DNA of 64,000 bases from Arthrobacter gandavensis (GTDB lineage Bacteria; Actinomycetota; Actinomycetes; Actinomycetales; Micrococcaceae), in NCBI RefSeq assembly GCF_015355785.1, contig NZ_JADKYW010000006.1, positions 206,936-270,935 of the forward strand, given 5' to 3'. Positions 5,111 through 38,069 of this stretch are shown here, piece by piece. Every line of letters starts with the position of its first letter. Positions within the stretch are counted from its first letter, which is position 1. The position numbers and the translations under genes are program-made. Under the pieces are notes generated by a model. The model had not been told where the DNA came from. It saw only the letters and a list, made by a program, of their open reading frames with translations, and searched no databases.

Positions 5111-5116
5111 ATCCGA

Positions 5117-5189
5117 GCGGACGACGGGATTCGAACCCGCGACATCCACCTTGGCAAGGTGGTGCTCTAGCCAGCTGAGCTACGTCCGC
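5117..5189 (-). tRNA. tRNA-Gly(GCC), copy 1
   Basis: 73-nt cloverleaf read on the minus strand: acceptor GCGGACG/CGTCCGC, D arm with GTAGCTCAGCTGGCTAGAGC, anticodon loop TTGCCAA giving GCC, and GGTTCGAATCC in the T arm. CCA is not encoded. It is the last gene of the minus-strand array and identical to the other two tRNA-Gly copies. Confidence 0.97.
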
Positions 5190-5233
5190 AGACAAAAGGC
5201 CGGCGCTGAATCTCTCCAGCGCTGACCTTCCGT

Positions 5234-5304
5234 GCGCGATACTGGGATCGAACCAGTGACCTCTTCCGTGTCAGGGAAGCGCGCTACCGCTGCGCCAATC
5301 GCGC
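5234..5304 (-). tRNA. tRNA-Val(GAC), copy 1
   Basis: 71-nt cloverleaf on the minus strand: acceptor GCGCGAT/ATCGCGC, anticodon stem CTTCC/GGAAG around CTGACAC (anticodon GAC), and T loop GGTTCGATCC. CCA is not encoded. Its sequence is the same as the second Val copy. Confidence 0.97.
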
Positions 5305-5351
5305 CTGTTACTGTCCTGGGACCGTAACCGGTGCCTCTACAGTACAGGAGA

Positions 5352-5424
5352 GCGGACGACGGGATTCGAACCCGCGACATCCACCTTGGCAAGGTGGTGC
5401 TCTAGCCAGCTGAGCTACGTCCGC
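5352..5424 (-). tRNA. tRNA-Gly(GCC), copy 2
   Basis: Identical 73-nt sequence to copy 1, with anticodon GCC. It forms with the neighbouring tRNA-Val(GAC) a Gly-Val unit that occurs twice in succession. Confidence 0.97.
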
Positions 5425-5470
5425 AAATGAATGTCCAACAGTCCGTGAAACACAAGGTGTTGAACCTCGT

Positions 5471-5541
5471 GCGCGATACTGGGATCGAACCAGTGACCTC
5501 TTCCGTGTCAGGGAAGCGCGCTACCGCTGCGCCAATCGCGC
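5471..5541 (-). tRNA. tRNA-Val(GAC), copy 2
   Basis: Identical 71-nt sequence to copy 1 with anticodon GAC in loop CTGACAC. It lies between tRNA-Cys and tRNA-Gly copy 2 in the array. Confidence 0.97.
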
Positions 5542-5571
5542 CCATGAATGGGGTGCTGCATGTAACCGTGG

Positions 5572-5642
5572 AGGTGGGGACGGGATTCGAACCCGCGTAT
5601 ACGGCTTTGCAGGCCGCTGCCTCGCCTCTCGGCCACCCCACC
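5572..5642 (-). tRNA. tRNA-Cys(GCA)
   Basis: 71-nt cloverleaf on the minus strand: acceptor GGTGGGG/CCCCACC, anticodon loop CTGCAAA giving GCA, T loop GGTTCGAATCC, discriminator T. Unlike the Gly and Val genes in this array the CCA end is encoded (complement of 5569-5571). Confidence 0.97.
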
Positions 5643-5683
5643 GTGACCAGCTTTTTGAGGGCCGGAAATACAGTGACTTGCGA

Positions 5684-5756
5684 GCGGACGACGGGATTCG
5701 AACCCGCGACATCCACCTTGGCAAGGTGGTGCTCTAGCCAGCTGAGCTACGTCCGC
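5684..5756 (-). tRNA. tRNA-Gly(GCC), copy 3
   Basis: Identical 73-nt sequence to the other two glycine copies. It is the first gene of the minus-strand array, so the promoter must lie in the 177 bases between it and the divergent tRNA-Val(CAC). Confidence 0.97.
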
Positions 5757-5804
5757 ATGTTGGCGTATTTCGCGGCGTTCAGCCGCTTTCCAACGAAGAA
5801 AAAC

Positions 5805-5832
5805 TCTATAGGACGTTTCGGCGTTCGTCCAA
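5805..5832 (-). promoter_or_regulatory. Candidate promoter of the tRNA array
   Basis: On the minus strand TTGGAC (complement of 5827-5832), a 16-base spacer and TATAGA (complement of 5805-5810) form a near-consensus housekeeping promoter, placing the start about 40 bases before the first tRNA-Gly. Seen by eye only. Confidence 0.5.
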
Positions 5833-5867
5833 TCGGACGCGCTGCGGCGCGTTGCCTGTATCCGGTT

Positions 5868-5895
5868 TTGAAGAGGGGTGATTGTGGGCTAGCAT
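5868..5895 (+). promoter_or_regulatory. Candidate promoter of tRNA-Val(CAC)
   Basis: TTGAAG (5868-5873), 16-base spacer, TAGCAT (5890-5895). Transcription would start about 30 bases before the tRNA. Both hexamers deviate from consensus. Confidence 0.4.
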
Positions 5896-5933
5896 CTTTA
5901 CACGTTGCAGCAGTTCAAAGGCAACTCCCGCAA

Positions 5934-6005
5934 GGGCGATTGGCGCAGTGGTAGCGCGCTTCGTTCACACCGAAGAGGTCACTGGTTCGAACCCAGTATC
6001 GCCCA
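5934..6005 (+). tRNA. tRNA-Val(CAC)
   Basis: 72-nt cloverleaf on the plus strand: acceptor GGGCGAT/ATCGCCC, anticodon stem CTTCG/CGAAG around TTCACAC (anticodon CAC), T loop GGTTCGAACCC, discriminator A, with CCA encoded at 6006-6008. It reads GTG codons and is divergent from the Gly/Cys/Val(GAC) array. Confidence 0.97.
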
Positions 6006-6018
6006 CCAGCACAGCGGA

Positions 6019-13380: not shown

Positions 13381-13390
13381 GAATTAACAA

Positions 13391-13533
13391 ACGTGCTCCG
13401 GGGTCGGTGTAATTCCGAACCGGCGGTTATAGTCCGCGACCCGCACGTCCGGCTGGGATCCCTCAGCAGGACGGACGGTTGAACCGGTGAAATTCCGGTA
13501 CCGACAGTTAAAGTCTGGATGGGAGAAGCACGT
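13391..13533 (+). promoter_or_regulatory. FMN riboswitch (RFN element)
   Basis: The closing P1 stem is ACGTGCT (13391-13397) with AGCACGT (13527-13533). Inside are the conserved blocks GGGGTCGGTGTAATTCC, GAACCGGCGGTTATAGTC, TGAAATTCCGGTACCGACAG and AGTCTGGATGGGAGA, which form the FMN-binding multi-helix junction. It lies 107 bases before the pnuX/ribM start. The intervening sequence contains complementary segments (GGGGTACC with GTACCCC, GGCGG with CCGCC) but no hairpin with a T run, so control is more likely at translation than by termination; this part is inference. FMN binding should repress import and synthesis of riboflavin. Confidence 0.96.
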
Positions 13534-13640
13534 ACAGTTTGTTGCGCTGACGCGTCGTGGTGCCCTGTGGGGTACCCGGCGGAGTCGATGCACCGCACTG
13601 TCGTACCCCCGGAGCCGCCGCTACGGGATAAGGAACGACA

Positions 13641-32175: not shown

Positions 32176-33060
32176 ATGCCGATGTCCCTGGCGGTCCCGG
32201 CCGCGATCCCCAGTCCGCCCGCCGAGTTCAGCAGCTTCTCGCTGGGCCCGCTGACCGTCCACGCGTACGCGCTGTGCATCCTGGCCGGGATTATCCTGGC
32301 CCTGTGGATGACATCCGTCCGCTGGAAGCGGCGCGGACTGCCGCCGGACTCCGTCTGGGACATCGCCATCTGGGCCATACCGTTCGGCATCATCGGCGGA
32401 CGGCTCTACCACGTTATCTCCTCACCGGACGCGTACTTCGGTCCCAACGGAAACCTGGCCCTGATTCCGCAGATCTGGCTGGGCGGCCTGGGCATCTGGG
32501 GCGCCATCGCGCTTGGAGCTGTGGGCGCCTGGATTGGCTGCCGCCGGGCGGGCATCAAGCTCTCCGCCTTCGCGGACGTCGCCGCTCCGGGGGTGCTGCT
32601 GGCGCAAGCCGTGGGACGCTGGGGCAACTGGTTTAATCAGGAACTTTTCGGCGGACCCACCGACGCACCCTGGGGCCTTGAGATTGATCCCAACAACACG
32701 AACTTCCCTGACGGAACGGCTCCTGGGACCCTGTTCCATCCCACGTTCCTCTACGAGTCGCTGTGGAACCTTGCCGGCGTCGCCTTGCTGCTGGTGCTGG
32801 ACCGCCGCTTCAGGCTGCGCGGCGGACGCCTGTTCTGGCTGTATGCCGCCTTCTACACTTCCGGGCGCGTCTGGATCGAAATGCTGCGCATCGACGACGC
32901 GGAAATGGTCACCATCCTGGGCCTCACGCAGCGCCTGAACGTTTGGACTTCCATCCTGATCTTCCTGGCGTCGATCGGCATGTTCATCTACCTCAGCGTG
33001 CGGGCGCGCAAGCAGCCGGAACCGTCGCTGCTGCTGCCCGGACACCCCTGCCGGCAGTGA
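32176..33060 (+). CDS. lgt: Prolipoprotein diacylglyceryl transferase
   Basis: A 294-residue polytopic membrane enzyme that transfers diacylglycerol from phosphatidylglycerol to the lipobox cysteine of prolipoproteins. The family signature is GRWGNWFNQELFGGPT, and IPFGIIGGRLYHVISSPD carries the conserved Arg and the essential Tyr-His pair. About seven hydrophobic helices are visible. It follows trpA by 2 bases, the usual actinobacterial trp-lgt linkage, though its role is unrelated to tryptophan. ModA at 61 kb is one likely substrate, having an LSGC lipobox. Confidence 0.96.
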   Translation: MPMSLAVPAAIPSPPAEFSSFSLGPLTVHAYALCILAGIILALWMTSVRWKRRGLPPDSVWDIAIWAIPFGIIGGRLYHVISSPDAYFGPNGNLALIPQIWLGGLGIWGAIALGAVGAWIGCRRAGIKLSAFADVAAPGVLLAQAVGRWGNWFNQELFGGPTDAPWGLEIDPNNTNFPDGTAPGTLFHPTFLYESLWNLAGVALLLVLDRRFRLRGGRLFWLYAAFYTSGRVWIEMLRIDDAEMVTILGLTQRLNVWTSILIFLASIGMFIYLSVRARKQPEPSLLLPGHPCRQ

Positions 33061-33120
33061 AACCGCTGGCCGCAGTAACAATTCACAGCTTGATAACAAG
33101 AGCGAAACAGATTCTGCGAA

Positions 33121-33138
33121 TGTGAACTCCGGATCACA
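33121..33138. promoter_or_regulatory. Inverted repeat at the likely gltB promoter
   Basis: TGTGA-N8-TCACA overlaps the expected -35 region upstream of the extended -10 at 33154. The half sites look Crp-like, but the spacing is 8 rather than the 6 of a classical CRP/GlxR site, so the factor is uncertain. Confidence 0.35.
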
Positions 33139-33153
33139 AACGGATGACACGCG

Positions 33154-33162
33154 TGCTACTCT
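33154..33162 (+). promoter_or_regulatory. Extended -10 promoter element for gltBD
   Basis: TGCTACTCT fits an extended -10 (TGn followed by TAnnnT). No good -35 hexamer is visible, which an extended -10 can tolerate. It would start a transcript near 33169, with about 314 bases of leader before the gltB ATG. Confidence 0.45.
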
Positions 33163-33168
33163 CGCAGA

Positions 33169-33482
33169 GACAAAAAACGAGGCTGCCAAGCCTCAGCGGC
33201 CCGGGGATTCGGGCCCAGCCACGTAGGACCGTTCAGCGCGGGTTACCTCCCGCCGCCGGTCCGGATGCCACACCGCGGTGGCGGCTAGCGGTAACCGTGC
33301 CGGGGACAACCCCGGCAGGACACCGGAAGGTTCCTTCGATTGTGAGCCGGCCCCATCCCAGCATGCAGGGCTTTCACATCTGAACGACCGTAAAATCATC
33401 GAACACACCGGTTGGTAGATGCCGCCGGCGTGGGGCCAACGTCGTCCCCTCCCAACGCTCAACAGGGGGAAGGACTTACCCT
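33169..33482 (+). promoter_or_regulatory. Long structured 5' leader of gltBD (candidate regulatory RNA)
   Basis: The 422 bases between lgt and gltB contain no supported gene. The part after the likely promoter holds a series of hairpins: GAGGCT/AGCCTC with loop GCCA (33179-33194), GGCCCG/CGGGCC (33198-33215), GCGGG/CCCGC (33238-33253) enclosed by GGACCG/CGGTCC (33226-33262), GCCAC/GTGGC (33267-33282) and GCCGGGG/CCCCGGC with loop ACAA (33299-33316). GGTTACC (33241-33247) can also pair with GGTAACC (33290-33296), excluding the third hairpin. It ends in a strong ribosome-binding site, GGGGGAAGGA. I could not match it to an RNA family I know. A regulatory function is inferred from structure and position. 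Confidence 0.45.
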
Positions 33483-36400
33483 ATGACTGACGCAATGTCC
33501 CCGCAGGCCGCCCCGGTGGTGTCTCCGTTCCAGCGGTTCGCGGCCTACCCGGCAGATTCGGGCCTCTACCGCGCCGAGAACGAGAAGGACGCGTGCGGCC
33601 TGGCTGTCATCGCCACGCTGCGCGGCGAGCCAGGACACGACATCGTGGACGCGGCGCTGACCGCCCTGCGCAACCTTGAGCACCGCGGCGCGGTAGGCGC
33701 TGACGAAGGCACCGGCGACGGAGCCGGCATCCTGACCCAGGTCCCCGATGAGTTCTTCCGTGCCGTTGCCGGCTTTGAGCTTCCCGCGCCCGGCGGCTAC
33801 GCCGTCGGCACCGCCTTCCTGCCCACTGAGGAACGCGAGCAGGAAACCGCCCGGGCAGGCGTCGAGGCAATCGCGGAGTCCGAAGGACTGAAGGTCCTCG
33901 GCTGGCGTGAAGTGCCCGTGGCAGCTGACCTGGTGGGCGCCATGTCCCGGGCCTGCATGCCGTACTTCGGTCAGGTATTCCTTGCCCCGGAAGAAGACGG
34001 CTGCCCAGATCTCGACGCCCGCGCCTTCCGCGTTCGGAAGCGGTCCCAGAACAAGTTCGGCGTGTACTTCCCGTCCCTGTCCTCGAAGACCATGGTTTAC
34101 AAAGGCATGGTTACCACCGCGCAGCTGGAGCCGTTCTTCCCGGATCTTTCCGATCCGCGGTTCAAGACCAAGCTCGGAATTGTGCACTCGCGCTTCTCCA
34201 CCAACACTTTCCCGTCCTGGCCGCTGGCCCAGCCGTTCCGCACCATTGCCCACAACGGCGAGATCAATACGGTCAAGGGCAACCGCAACTGGATGCGGGC
34301 CCGCCAGTCCCAGCTCAAGAGCCCGCTGCTGGGGGATACTCCCGAGGAGCTCTTCCCCATCTGCACCCCGGGCGCCTCGGATTCGGCGTCCTTTGACGAG
34401 GTTGCCGAGCTGCTGATGCTTTCCGGGCGTCCCATCACCCATGCGGTGATGATGATGATCCCGGAAGCGTGGGAAAACCACGCGACGATGGATCCCGCAC
34501 GCCGTGCCTTCTACCAGTACCACTCCATGCTCATGGAGCCGTGGGACGGACCGGCGGCTGTTTCCTTCACCGACGGAGACCAGGTGGGCGCCGTACTGGA
34601 CCGCAACGGCCTGCGTCCGGCTCGGTACTGGATCACCGAGGACGGCCTGGTGGTCCTGGCCTCCGAGGTTGGCGTGGTGGACATCGATCCGGCCAAGGTG
34701 GTCCGCAAGGGACGCGTCTCTCCGGGCAAGATGTTCCTGGTGGATACCGCCCAGGGCCGGCTGGTTGAGGACTCGGAGATCAAGGCCGAGATCGCCGCCG
34801 CAAACCCCTGGGCCGAATGGGTCCGGGAGAACCAGGTGTCCCTGGAAGATCTGCCCGAGCGTGAGCATGTGCTGCACACCAAGGCTTCCATCAACCGCCG
34901 GCAGCGCACCTTCGGCTACACCCAGGAAGAACTGCGCATCCTGCTCGGCCCGATGGCACGCAGCGGTGCCGAGCCCCTCGGCGCCATGGGGTCGGACACT
35001 CCCATCGCGGTGCTGTCCCAGCGTCCCCGGCTCCTCTTCGACTACTTTGTGCAGTCCTTCGCGCAGGTCACCAACCCGCCGCTGGATGCCATCCGCGAAG
35101 AACTCGTGACCTCCCTGCAGAGCTCCATCGGCCCGAACGGCAACCTCCTGGCACCGGGCCAGGTGAAGACCCACCAGATCGCGCTGAAGTTCCCCGTGAT
35201 CAATAATGACGAGCTCGCCAAGATCGCCAACCTCAGGAACGAGGAAGGCGAGAAGGTTGCGCTGAAGGTCCGCGGCCTCTACCGGCCCGACGGCGGCGAA
35301 TCGGAACTGCGCGCACGCATCAGTGAGATCTGCGAAAAGGTTTCAGGTGCCGTGAACCGCGGGGTGCAGTACATTGTGCTCTCCGACCGCGACTCCAACG
35401 CCCAGTGGGCGCCGATCCCGTCCCTGCTGCTGCTCTCAGCCGTGCACCACCACCTGCTCAAGAGCGCCAACCGCACCAAGATCTCCCTGATCGTGGAGGC
35501 GGGCGACGTCCGCGAGGTGCACCACGTGGCGGTGCTGATCGGCTATGGGGCTTCCGCCGTGAACCCGTACCTGGCCATGGAAAGCTGCGAGGAACTGGTC
35601 CGCAACGGCGACATCACCGGCGTCACCCGCGAACAGGCGGTAGCCAACCTGATCAAGGGACTGGGCAAGGGCGTCCTGAAGATCATGTCCAAGATGGGCA
35701 TCTCAACTGTCGCTTCCTACTGTGGTGCGCAGACCTTCGAAGCCATCGGCCTGGGACAGGAACTGGTGGACGAGTTCTTCCACGGCACGCAGACCCAGCT
35801 CGGCGGCGTCGGCCTGGACGTGATCGCAGCGGAAGCTGCGGCACGCCACACCTCCGCCTACCCGGCGGACGAAATCGAAGAGCCGCACCGCAGCCTGGAG
35901 AACGGCGGCGAGTACCAGTGGCGCCGCGAAGGCCCGCCGCACCTGTTCAACCCGGAAACGGTCTTCCGCCTGCAGCACTCCACCCGTGAGCGCCGCTACG
36001 ACGTGTTCAAGGCGTACACCCGCGGAGTGGATGACCAGTCGAAGAACCTGATGACCCTGCGCGGGCTGCTGGACTTCCGCACCGGGGAACGCCCGGCCGT
36101 GCCGCTGGAGGAAGTGGAACCGGTCTCCTCGATCGTCAAACGCTTCTCCACAGGTGCCATGAGCTACGGCTCCATTTCCAAGGAAGCCCACGAAACCCTG
36201 GCCATCGCCATGAACCGGCTGGGGGCAAAGTCCAACACCGGTGAGGGCGGTGAAGACGTGGACCGCCTGCTCGATCCCGAACGCCGCTCCGCCATAAAGC
36301 AGGTGGCTTCCGGCCGCTTCGGCGTCACCAGCCTGTACCTGACCAATGCGGATGACCTGCAGATCAAGATGGCCCAGGGTGCCAAGCCCGGCGAAGGCGG

Positions 36401-38069
36401 CCAGCTGATGGCGCAGAAGGTCTACCCGTGGGTGGCCAGTACCCGGCACTCCACGCCCGGCGTCGGCTTGATCTCTCCGCCGCCGCACCACGACATCTAC
36501 TCCATCGAGGACCTTGCCCAGCTCATTTATGACCTGAAACGGGCCAACCCGTCCGCCCGGGTCCACGTGAAGCTCGTCTCCGAGGCCGGAATCGGCACCG
36601 TGGCAGCCGGAGTGACCAAGGCCAAGGCCGACGTCGTCCTCGTTTCGGGGCACGACGGCGGCACGGGCGCTTCGCCGTTGAACTCTCTGAAGCACGCGGG
36701 GGCGCCGTGGGAACTCGGCCTGGCCGAAACGCAGCAGACCCTTATGCTCAACGGCCTGCGCGACCGTGTGGTGGTGCAGGTGGACGGACAGCTCAAGACA
36801 GGCCGCGACGTCGTCATTGCCGCCCTGCTGGGAGGTGAGGAATTTGGCTTCGCCACCGCACCGCTGGTGGTCTCCGGCTGCGTCATGATGCGTGTCTGCC
36901 ATCTGGACACCTGCCCCGTGGGCGTCGCCACGCAGAACCCGGAGCTGCGGTCCCGCTTCACCGGCAAGCCGGAATTCGTGGTCAACTTCTTCGAGTTCCT
37001 GGCCGAAGAAGTACGCGAATTGCTGGCCGAACTTGGTTTCCGCAGCCTGGAAGAAGCGATCGGGCACAGCGAAATGCTGGACACCCGCGCCGCCGTGGAC
37101 CACTGGAAGGCCGACGGACTGGACCTTGAGCCGATCCTGCGCGGCCACGAAGTGGACCCGGGTGCGCCGCTGCGCAGCCTGGTTCCGCAGAATCACGAAC
37201 TGGATGCGCACTTCGACAACAAACTGATCGAGATGAGCGCTGATGCGCTCTCCAGCCGGCAGCCGGTGCGGATTGCCCTGGACGTGGTCAACACGGACCG
37301 CTCCGTGGGCACCATGCTGGGGCACACAGTCACCAAGACCTTCGGCACCGACTGCCTGGCCACGGACACGATCGACATCACCCTCACCGGGCAGGCCGGC
37401 CAGTCCCTGGGCGCCTTCCTGCCGGCGGGGATCACGCTGCGGCTGTACGGCGATTCGAACGACTACGTCGGCAAGGGACTCTCCGGCGGACGCATCATTG
37501 TCCGTCCGGACCGCAGCAATGTGTTCCCGGCAGAACGCAACGTCATTGCCGGTAACGTGATCGGCTACGGCGCCACCGGCGGCGAGATGTTCCTTCGCGG
37601 CCAGGTGGGCGAGCGGTTCATGGTCCGCAACTCCGGCGCCACCGCCGTCGTGGAAGGCATCGGCGACCACGGCTGCGAGTACATGACCGGCGGGCAGACC
37701 CTCATCCTCGGCTCCACCGGCCGGAACTTCGGTGCCGGCATGTCCGGCGGAACCGCCTTCGTGGTGGACCTGAGCCCGGCACGGGTGAACAAGGACGCCC
37801 TGGACAACGGTGATCTGCTGCTGCTGGAGCCCGACGCCGAGGACGCGGACATCATCCGCGGCCTGCTGGTTCAACACGCGGAAGAAACCGGGTCCCCGCG
37901 GGCAGCCAGCCTGCTGGAGGACTTCGACACCACCGTTTCCCGCATCACCAAAGTACTGCCGCGCGATTACGCGGCCGTGCTCGACGCCCGCGCCTCCGCA
38001 GCCGAAGCGGGGCTGGACCCCGACGGCGCCGAAGCATGGACCAAGATTCTGGAGGTAACCGGTGGCTGA
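33483..38069 (+). CDS. gltB: Glutamate synthase (NADPH) large subunit
   Basis: A 1528-residue enzyme making two glutamates from glutamine and 2-oxoglutarate. The N-terminal class II glutamine amidotransferase domain becomes active when a 37-residue propeptide is removed, exposing Cys38 in [14 protein letters not shown]. The central and FMN-binding synthase domains follow ([33 protein letters not shown]), then the 3Fe-4S cysteines in [19 protein letters not shown] near residue 1133, and a C-terminal beta-helix domain rich in glycine ([25 protein letters not shown]). The length is typical. The gene follows a long structured leader and overlaps gltD by 8 bases. Confidence 0.97.

Follow-up and report, generated by a model that had tools for sequence, protein, structure and literature searches.

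Glutamate synthase is a gateway of nitrogen assimilation, and the locus described here raises the question of whether the mRNA for its large subunit carries a regulatory element of its own ahead of the start codon. In the window, by which we mean the whole 64,000-nt stretch of DNA that was analyzed, the genes run in the order trpA, lgt, a 422-nt gap, gltB, and gltD. The end of lgt lies at 33060 and the gltB ATG at 33483, with the gene for the glutamate synthase large subunit spanning 33483 to 38069 on the forward strand (NCBIfam NF008730, 1661.6 bits, cutoff 1047). The genome carrying the window is 3.37 Mb in size, and its closest named gltB relatives are Arthrobacter species. The gltB and gltD reading frames share 8 nt (38062 to 38069), an overlap that suggests translational coupling. 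Elsewhere in the window, a seven-tRNA cluster occupies 5115 to 6008, with three tRNA-Gly(gcc), two tRNA-Val(gac), and one tRNA-Cys(gca) on the reverse strand and one tRNA-Val(cac) on the forward strand.

An earlier note on this DNA had proposed a cis-regulatory RNA acting at the gltB ribosome-binding site and resembling no known riboswitch family. Such an RNA, matched by no Rfam family, is supported here, and the widest conservation, which the earlier note had missed, lies at 33433 to 33475, adjoining the start codon. We put at roughly 0.6 the probability that the gltB leader ends in a short RNA switch for translation, in which a conserved 16-nt core folding as a hairpin (hairpin 1) would alternate with a helix that pairs the 3′ arm of that hairpin with the Shine-Dalgarno region (helix 2). 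The parts of this reading differ in firmness. We are fairly sure that the core is a conserved mRNA element that acts close to where translation starts. Our confidence is lower for the two-state mechanism, and about the trigger we are unsure.

The distal promoter and the long upstream leader

The extended −10 element that the earlier note had described, TGCTACTCT, is located at 33154 to 33162 on the forward strand, as stated there. It is the predicted −10 of a distal promoter, P1, and is conserved in the 29-locus alignment of the genus; with the bases that follow, it reads GAGACAAA in 28 of 29 genus loci. Upstream of it, at 33093 to 33108 on the forward strand, lies a GlnR-like box, ATAAC-n6-GAAAC, which matches the mycobacterial form t/gTAAC-n6-Gc/aAAC, as given in a passage of a review (PMC10704036), at all but the first base. 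All 29 genus genomes have nT(A/C)AC-n6-GAAAC here, and the putative box stands 62 nt from the GCTA of the P1 −10 in 28 of them and 53 nt in the remaining one, a constant promoter distance in 28 of 29. According to the Pseudonocardiaceae passage of the same review, GlnR regulates gltBD directly (PMC10704036). Since the conserved distal promoter carries a GlnR-like box throughout the genus, transcription of gltBD from P1 is probably under nitrogen control.

The long upstream leader was aligned within the genus of the window alone, where 29 leaders gave 28 distinct sequences after one that was identical to another was dropped. Conservation in this set is strongest in two blocks, one made up of P1 and the bases immediately following it, the other of the 50 nt that precede the ATG. 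The stretch from 33160 to 33490 folds somewhat better than shuffled sequences (z −2.32, with 1 of 100 shuffles equally good), and no terminator with a T run is visible in the leader sequence, in agreement with the earlier note. The stems that had been proposed between these blocks are conserved in part. The 5′ hairpin of the P1 leader, GAGGC/GCCTC at 33179 to 33194 on the forward strand, is kept, with 98.6% of cells paired across the 28 leaders and both sides changed in 2 of its 5 pairs (33179 to 33183 with 33190 to 33194). Also kept is the forward-strand hairpin at 33238 to 33253, GCGGG/CCCGC, which bears GGTTACC and is 86.9% paired in the same leaders.

What is not kept is the exchange of partners that the earlier note had read as a switch within the long leader. 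In its favor, GGTTACC (33241 to 33247) and GGTAACC (33290 to 33296) are indeed perfect complements in the window. Across the 28 leaders, however, the 2 blocks are paired in 63.5% of cases against 63.2% in shuffles, the pairing is reached by 225 of 500 shuffles, and the partner at 33290 to 33296 is not conserved, with GGTAACC standing at its window place in leaders L031 to L034 only. These results largely refute the exchange, and we give it scarcely any credence. The long structured leader seems to have been added in the genus of the window or its relatives.

A near-invariant core dedicated to gltB

Upstream regions of gltB were collected from 29 genus genomes and from 80 named, 73 family, and 60 class-sample loci, 242 in all, with some genomes present twice. 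Thirteen (12 of 182 and 1 of 60) lack a reading-frame anchor, which leaves 229 loci. The core of the window, GGGCCAACGTCGTCCC at 33433 to 33448 on the forward strand, is 16 nt long and lies inside the last 50 nt before gltB. Of the 229 actinobacterial gltB loci, 190 have the exact core GGGCCRNNGNNGTCCC in the forward orientation within 400 nt of the anchor and none has it reversed. A relaxed search that freed positions 1, 4, and 16 only brings the count of exact or relaxed cores to 204, and in 25 of the 229 neither form was found. At least 11 of the 12 fixed letters are present in 29 of 29 loci from the genus, 64 of 77 from the named set, 53 of 64 from the family, and 49 of 59 from the class sample. 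Because the genus, named, and family loci had served to define the pattern, the later-collected class sample tests it more fairly.

Named carriers include Arthrobacter, Pseudarthrobacter, Sinomonas, Micrococcus, Cryobacterium, Curtobacterium, Leifsonia, Cellulomonas, and Aeromicrobium, and the core is absent from all eight anchorable Nocardia gltB loci. Outside the class, it is present in exact form in 4 of 20 loci (L304, L307, L308, and L309), the other 16 being without it. Variation falls mainly on loop positions 6 to 8, 10, and 11, in letter counts whose invariance is overstated by the preselection of loci with at least 10 of 12 matches, and the flanks have no conserved letters. This pattern of variation, together with the unconserved flanks, is more what one would expect of a hairpin bound by a protein than of a classical aptamer.

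The strict form of the core, GGGCCANYGTYGTCCC, gave 65 matches in 128 class genomes, against 10 for a reversed control pattern. Fifty-five of the matches, spread over 55 of the 113 genomes with gltB that entered the comparison (out of 117 class genomes bearing the gene; G538, G549, G561, and G578 were left out, as were some second pieces), fall on the gltB strand no more than 500 nt ahead of the gene. The 10 matches elsewhere equal the level of the reversed control, one of them falling in G560, where gltB was not found, and no second target gene emerged for the strict form in the 128 genomes. Judged from these counts, the core is tied to gltB. The loose pattern GGGCCRNNGNNGTCCC is common by chance across 297 genomes of the order, with 4 matches in the window's own genome compared to 8 for the reversed control. 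In 25 of 25 genus genomes, a covariance model built on the family recovers the gltB site with E values of 1.7e-11 to 6.4e-7, a result that was largely built in, as many of these genomes supplied sequences for the model. Its sole other match in the window's own genome has an E value of 0.74, and in 14 genomes of other families it found nothing below E 0.1, being too narrow for the class.

Promoter spacing and the orientation of the core

A probable second promoter that the earlier note had missed, P2, has its −10 (TAAAAT) at 33391 to 33396 on the forward strand and is predicted from the positions at which TANNNT occurs relative to the core. In Micrococcaceae this hexamer lies 35 to 60 nt before the core in 70 of 106 loci, compared to 3 and 4 in two neighboring intervals, and among genus genomes it lies 30 to 60 nt before the core in 20 of 29 and was not found there in nine. 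In the class sample it stands closer: 41 of 49 loci have it 7 to 32 nt before the core, compared to 6 and 2 for neighboring intervals, and in 39 other named loci it has no clear place (10 at 7 to 32 nt, 10 at 35 to 60 nt, and 1 at 63 to 88 nt). If P2 is used, some of the gltB mRNA may begin no more than about 80 nt ahead of the ATG, and the core probably lies near the 5′ end of the gltB mRNA in much of the class. The distance from core start to start codon is 44 to 74 nt in Micrococcaceae, with quartiles of 51 to 53, and is looser in the class sample, with quartiles of 53 to 85 and values of up to 254.

A motif close behind a promoter could be a DNA operator, that is, a transcription-factor site just downstream of the gltB promoter, and both the position of TANNNT in those 41 class-sample loci and the loose class-sample distance to the start codon would agree with this, as would the nearly palindromic sequence GGGnCnACGTnGnCCC. 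Several properties of the core speak against it: 190 cores are forward and 0 reversed, the near-invariant letters C4, G9, and U13 are asymmetric, and in Micrococcaceae the distance that is tight is the one to the start codon, the nearest −10-like box being mostly 45 to 55 nt upstream. An operator would also leave unexplained the arm matched to the Shine-Dalgarno region that is described below. We reject a symmetric operator on the fixed orientation and the asymmetric invariant letters, and an operator of any kind we consider improbable.

The place close behind a −10 box is also a usual one for a protective 5′ hairpin, and the core could thus be a constitutive translation-start or mRNA-stability element that fixes the translation rate and senses nothing. 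The 41 class-sample loci count in its favor, as do the flanks, which have no aptamer-like conservation, and the failure of a second target gene to emerge. A stabilizing hairpin, on the other hand, would have no need of 16 nearly fixed letters that include an asymmetric mismatch, or of an arm that matches its own Shine-Dalgarno region. This makes a constitutive element unlikely in our estimate, if somewhat less so than an operator.

Hairpin 1 and its conserved mismatch

In the window, hairpin 1 pairs 33433 to 33435 with 33446 to 33448 and 33437 with 33444. The end pair, between positions 1 and 16, is standard in 158 of 164 distinct contexts, a count reached by 0 of 10000 shuffles. Twelve contexts depart from G-C at this pair, with 4 C-G, 1 U-A, and 1 G-U, and with 6 that break it. 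Covariation within hairpin 1 is thin because the core is so nearly invariant. Positions 4 and 13 form an unpaired C4-U13 mismatch in 159 of 164 contexts, which simple pairing does not explain. In five contexts (L294, L297, L303, L293, and L229) A4 stands opposite U13 instead, and L294, L297, and L303, which come from one family of the class sample, have a fully paired CGGAC...GUCCG stem. The mismatch may tune the balance between the two states, or it may be read by a binding partner.

An upstream open reading frame running through the core might control gltB, and frames initiated by ATG or GTG do cross it, the three frames doing so in 97, 81, and 54 of 190 loci. No one frame is general, however, and when the core is read as GGC-CRN-NGN-NGT-CCC, three third positions are near-invariant while the first and third positions of the middle codons vary, which is unlike coding sequence. 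We reject an upstream reading frame on the lack of a general frame together with this pattern of variation, and the chance that one controls gltB seems to us very small.

Predicted pairing of the 3′ arm with the Shine-Dalgarno region

The 3′ side of hairpin 1 continues into an anti-Shine-Dalgarno arm, GTCCCCTCCC at 33444 to 33453 on the forward strand, whose predicted partner is the Shine-Dalgarno region GGGGGAAGGAC at 33465 to 33475 on the same strand, nearly invariant in the genus. Helix 2 of the window pairs 33444 to 33447 with 33472 to 33475 and 33449 to 33453 with 33465 to 33469, and since hairpin 1 and helix 2 both require the letters 33444, 33446, and 33447, the two are mutually exclusive. 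RNAalifold pairs the arm with the Shine-Dalgarno region in 26 to 28 of 28 genus leaders, with pairs that hardly vary and show no covariation.

The stronger evidence comes from swapping arms and Shine-Dalgarno regions between genomes. Duplexes formed by each arm with its own region average −13.90, compared to −12.16 (sd 0.21) when partners are swapped (z −8.45, 0 of 5000 permutations), in a test that permutes across genomes irrespective of relatedness. Two controls are null (z +1.65 for a segment upstream of the core and +1.68 for the 5′ arm), and an earlier form of the test was concordant (own −14.73, permuted −13.53, sd 0.20). The signal is strong outside Micrococcaceae (z −6.59), modest inside that family (z −2.46, 34 of 5000), and weak when the arm is limited to positions 17 to 28, outside the core (z −2.52, 32 of 5000).

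Exact complements are dominated by one type of core. GACGAC occurs before the start codon in 27 of 60 loci with GTCGTC cores and in 0 of 38 with GTTGTC cores, and an exact own complement is present in 33 of 157 loci, compared to 2.3% for the complements of other core types. The GTCGTC type supplies 27 of those 33; for the other types, the own complement was found in 3 of 38 GTTGTC loci (as GACAAC), 1 of 14 GCTGTC loci, and 0 of 15 GCCGTC loci. Many class-sample loci have GACGAC as the partner, immediately 5′ of the Shine-Dalgarno sequence, so that helix 2 there would abut the site and not cover it.

Two other counts separate little or nothing. A count of 7-mer complements that allows G-U pairs gave 41 full matches in 206 against 10.1% for shuffles, and column-wise RNAalifold on the family found 0 pairs changed on both sides. 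We think that the latter null result comes partly from arms that shift register. The family set comprised 77 listed stretches, of which 67 were aligned; the ten left out, most of which have odd linker lengths, are L083, L084, L195, L196, L197, L211, L212, L216, L242, and L243. On balance, the match between each arm and its own Shine-Dalgarno region points to pairing in the mRNA.

Energies of the two states

Folding energies were compared for 137 stretches in which a core with at least 11 of 12 letters lies no more than 130 nt from the start codon, duplicates having been removed, with hairpin 1 enforced in one state and its 5′ arm kept unpaired in the other. The energies of the two states are similar, with a mean difference of 0.32 kcal/mol (sd 2.54), and lie within 2 kcal/mol of each other in 78 of the 137. 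In only 65 does hairpin 1 have the lower energy. The mean openness of the Shine-Dalgarno region is 0.51 with hairpin 1 forced and 0.36 with the 5′ arm unpaired; it is greater with hairpin 1 in 113 of 137 stretches, by more than 0.2 in 46, and smaller by more than 0.2 in 1.

For the window, the corresponding values are 0.83 and 0.53. In its minimum-energy fold, the probable P2 transcript has the Shine-Dalgarno region hidden, and when hairpin 1 is forced, CUCCC:GGGGG is still paired and only the AAGGAC part is freed. Sequence and energy thus yield two exclusive helices, one of which hides the Shine-Dalgarno region, with the effect being partial in the window. Given the similar state energies, the shift in openness, and this partial freeing, a two-state switch at the end of the gltB leader is plausible rather than proven.

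A possible translational switch

We classify the proposed device as a translational leader switch and the core as a candidate new RNA motif of that kind. In one state, the core GGGCC-RNNGNN-GUCCC would fold on itself as hairpin 1. In the other, hairpin 1 would open and its 3′ arm, GNNGUCCC with the pyrimidines that follow, would pair with the Shine-Dalgarno region as helix 2, or, at many loci outside the family, with GACGAC directly before the Shine-Dalgarno sequence, and this helix would hinder ribosome loading. If some factor recognizes or stabilizes hairpin 1, translation of gltB would go up. Such a factor would most likely be a protein, perhaps acting autogenously. We infer the direction of control, the trigger, the sensing step, and the physiological role, and the small size and fixed sequence of the core make the trigger directly testable.

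The factor might instead be a small molecule, in which case the core would belong to a riboswitch for glutamine, glutamate, or 2-oxoglutarate. The dedication of the element to glutamate synthase would suit such a role, and an unrelated riboswitch candidate for gltD is described in a passage on other bacteria (PMC8632094). The shared part, however, is 16 nt with unconserved flanks, and no Rfam riboswitch matches it, so that we see only a slim chance of a metabolite sensor. Sixteen nucleotides is small for a metabolite aptamer.

A broader reading has, in our estimate, slightly less than even odds. The core may represent an ancient, undescribed class of RNA dedicated to glutamate synthase in Actinomycetota, in which the 16-nt hairpin, set against Shine-Dalgarno pairing and read by a factor or a metabolite, would exert translational nitrogen control across much of the phylum.

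Comparison with known regulatory RNAs

A search of Rfam 15, which the earlier note had called for, gave no match to the leader at gathering scores. At E values of up to 5, the gltB leader matched only HgcG (E 3.3, 9.6 bits, against a gathering score of 77), which is at chance level, and nine other gltB loci gave no match at E values of up to 2. The glutamine riboswitches (the glnA and Downstream-peptide motifs), which we take to be models within the Rfam library, gave no covariance match in the leader of the window or in the nine other gltB loci. The window does contain an FMN riboswitch aptamer at 13389 to 13535 on the forward strand (101.5 bits). Among the titles and beginnings of abstracts of the open-access papers that our searches brought up, we found no description of the core element, and it is not described in passages of PMC2864571, PMC1262725, PMC11109978, PMC8632094, or PMC10704036.

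The glnA and Downstream-peptide motifs resemble the element in that, according to a passage of their description, they lie in leaders of nitrogen-metabolism genes, glutamate synthase included (PMC2864571). Another comparison is the LEU element of leuA in Actinobacteria, an amino-acid leader whose stem, as described in a passage of that paper, overlaps the Shine-Dalgarno sequence of a single biosynthetic gene, and for which its authors favored a bound protein and thought a small molecule unlikely (PMC1262725). In the same passage, the LEU element has features of its own, namely a leucine-rich leader peptide, a pseudoknot, and its place before leuA (PMC1262725). The core described here, in contrast, is a 16-nt hairpin with no general reading frame through it, and the gene downstream of it is gltB, not leuA. 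The gltD motif candidate RNA likewise precedes a glutamate synthase gene, and the hairpin after it apparently occludes the ribosome-binding site; it is set apart by gene and by taxa, as it lies before gltD and, in the passage that describes it, its sequenced organisms are Selenomonadales and Veillonellales only (PMC8632094).

The remaining comparison is with GlnR. In the passages concerned, a review treats the control of glutamate synthase in Actinomycetes through this transcription factor, and the GlnR-controlled promoters that it describes resemble the window in the GlnR-like box before P1, whereas the control that they exert is transcriptional and separate from the gltB RNA element (PMC10704036). 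A near-unchanged RNA element before gltB in much of the class, and at some loci beyond it, would mean that a layer of post-transcriptional control has been missed.
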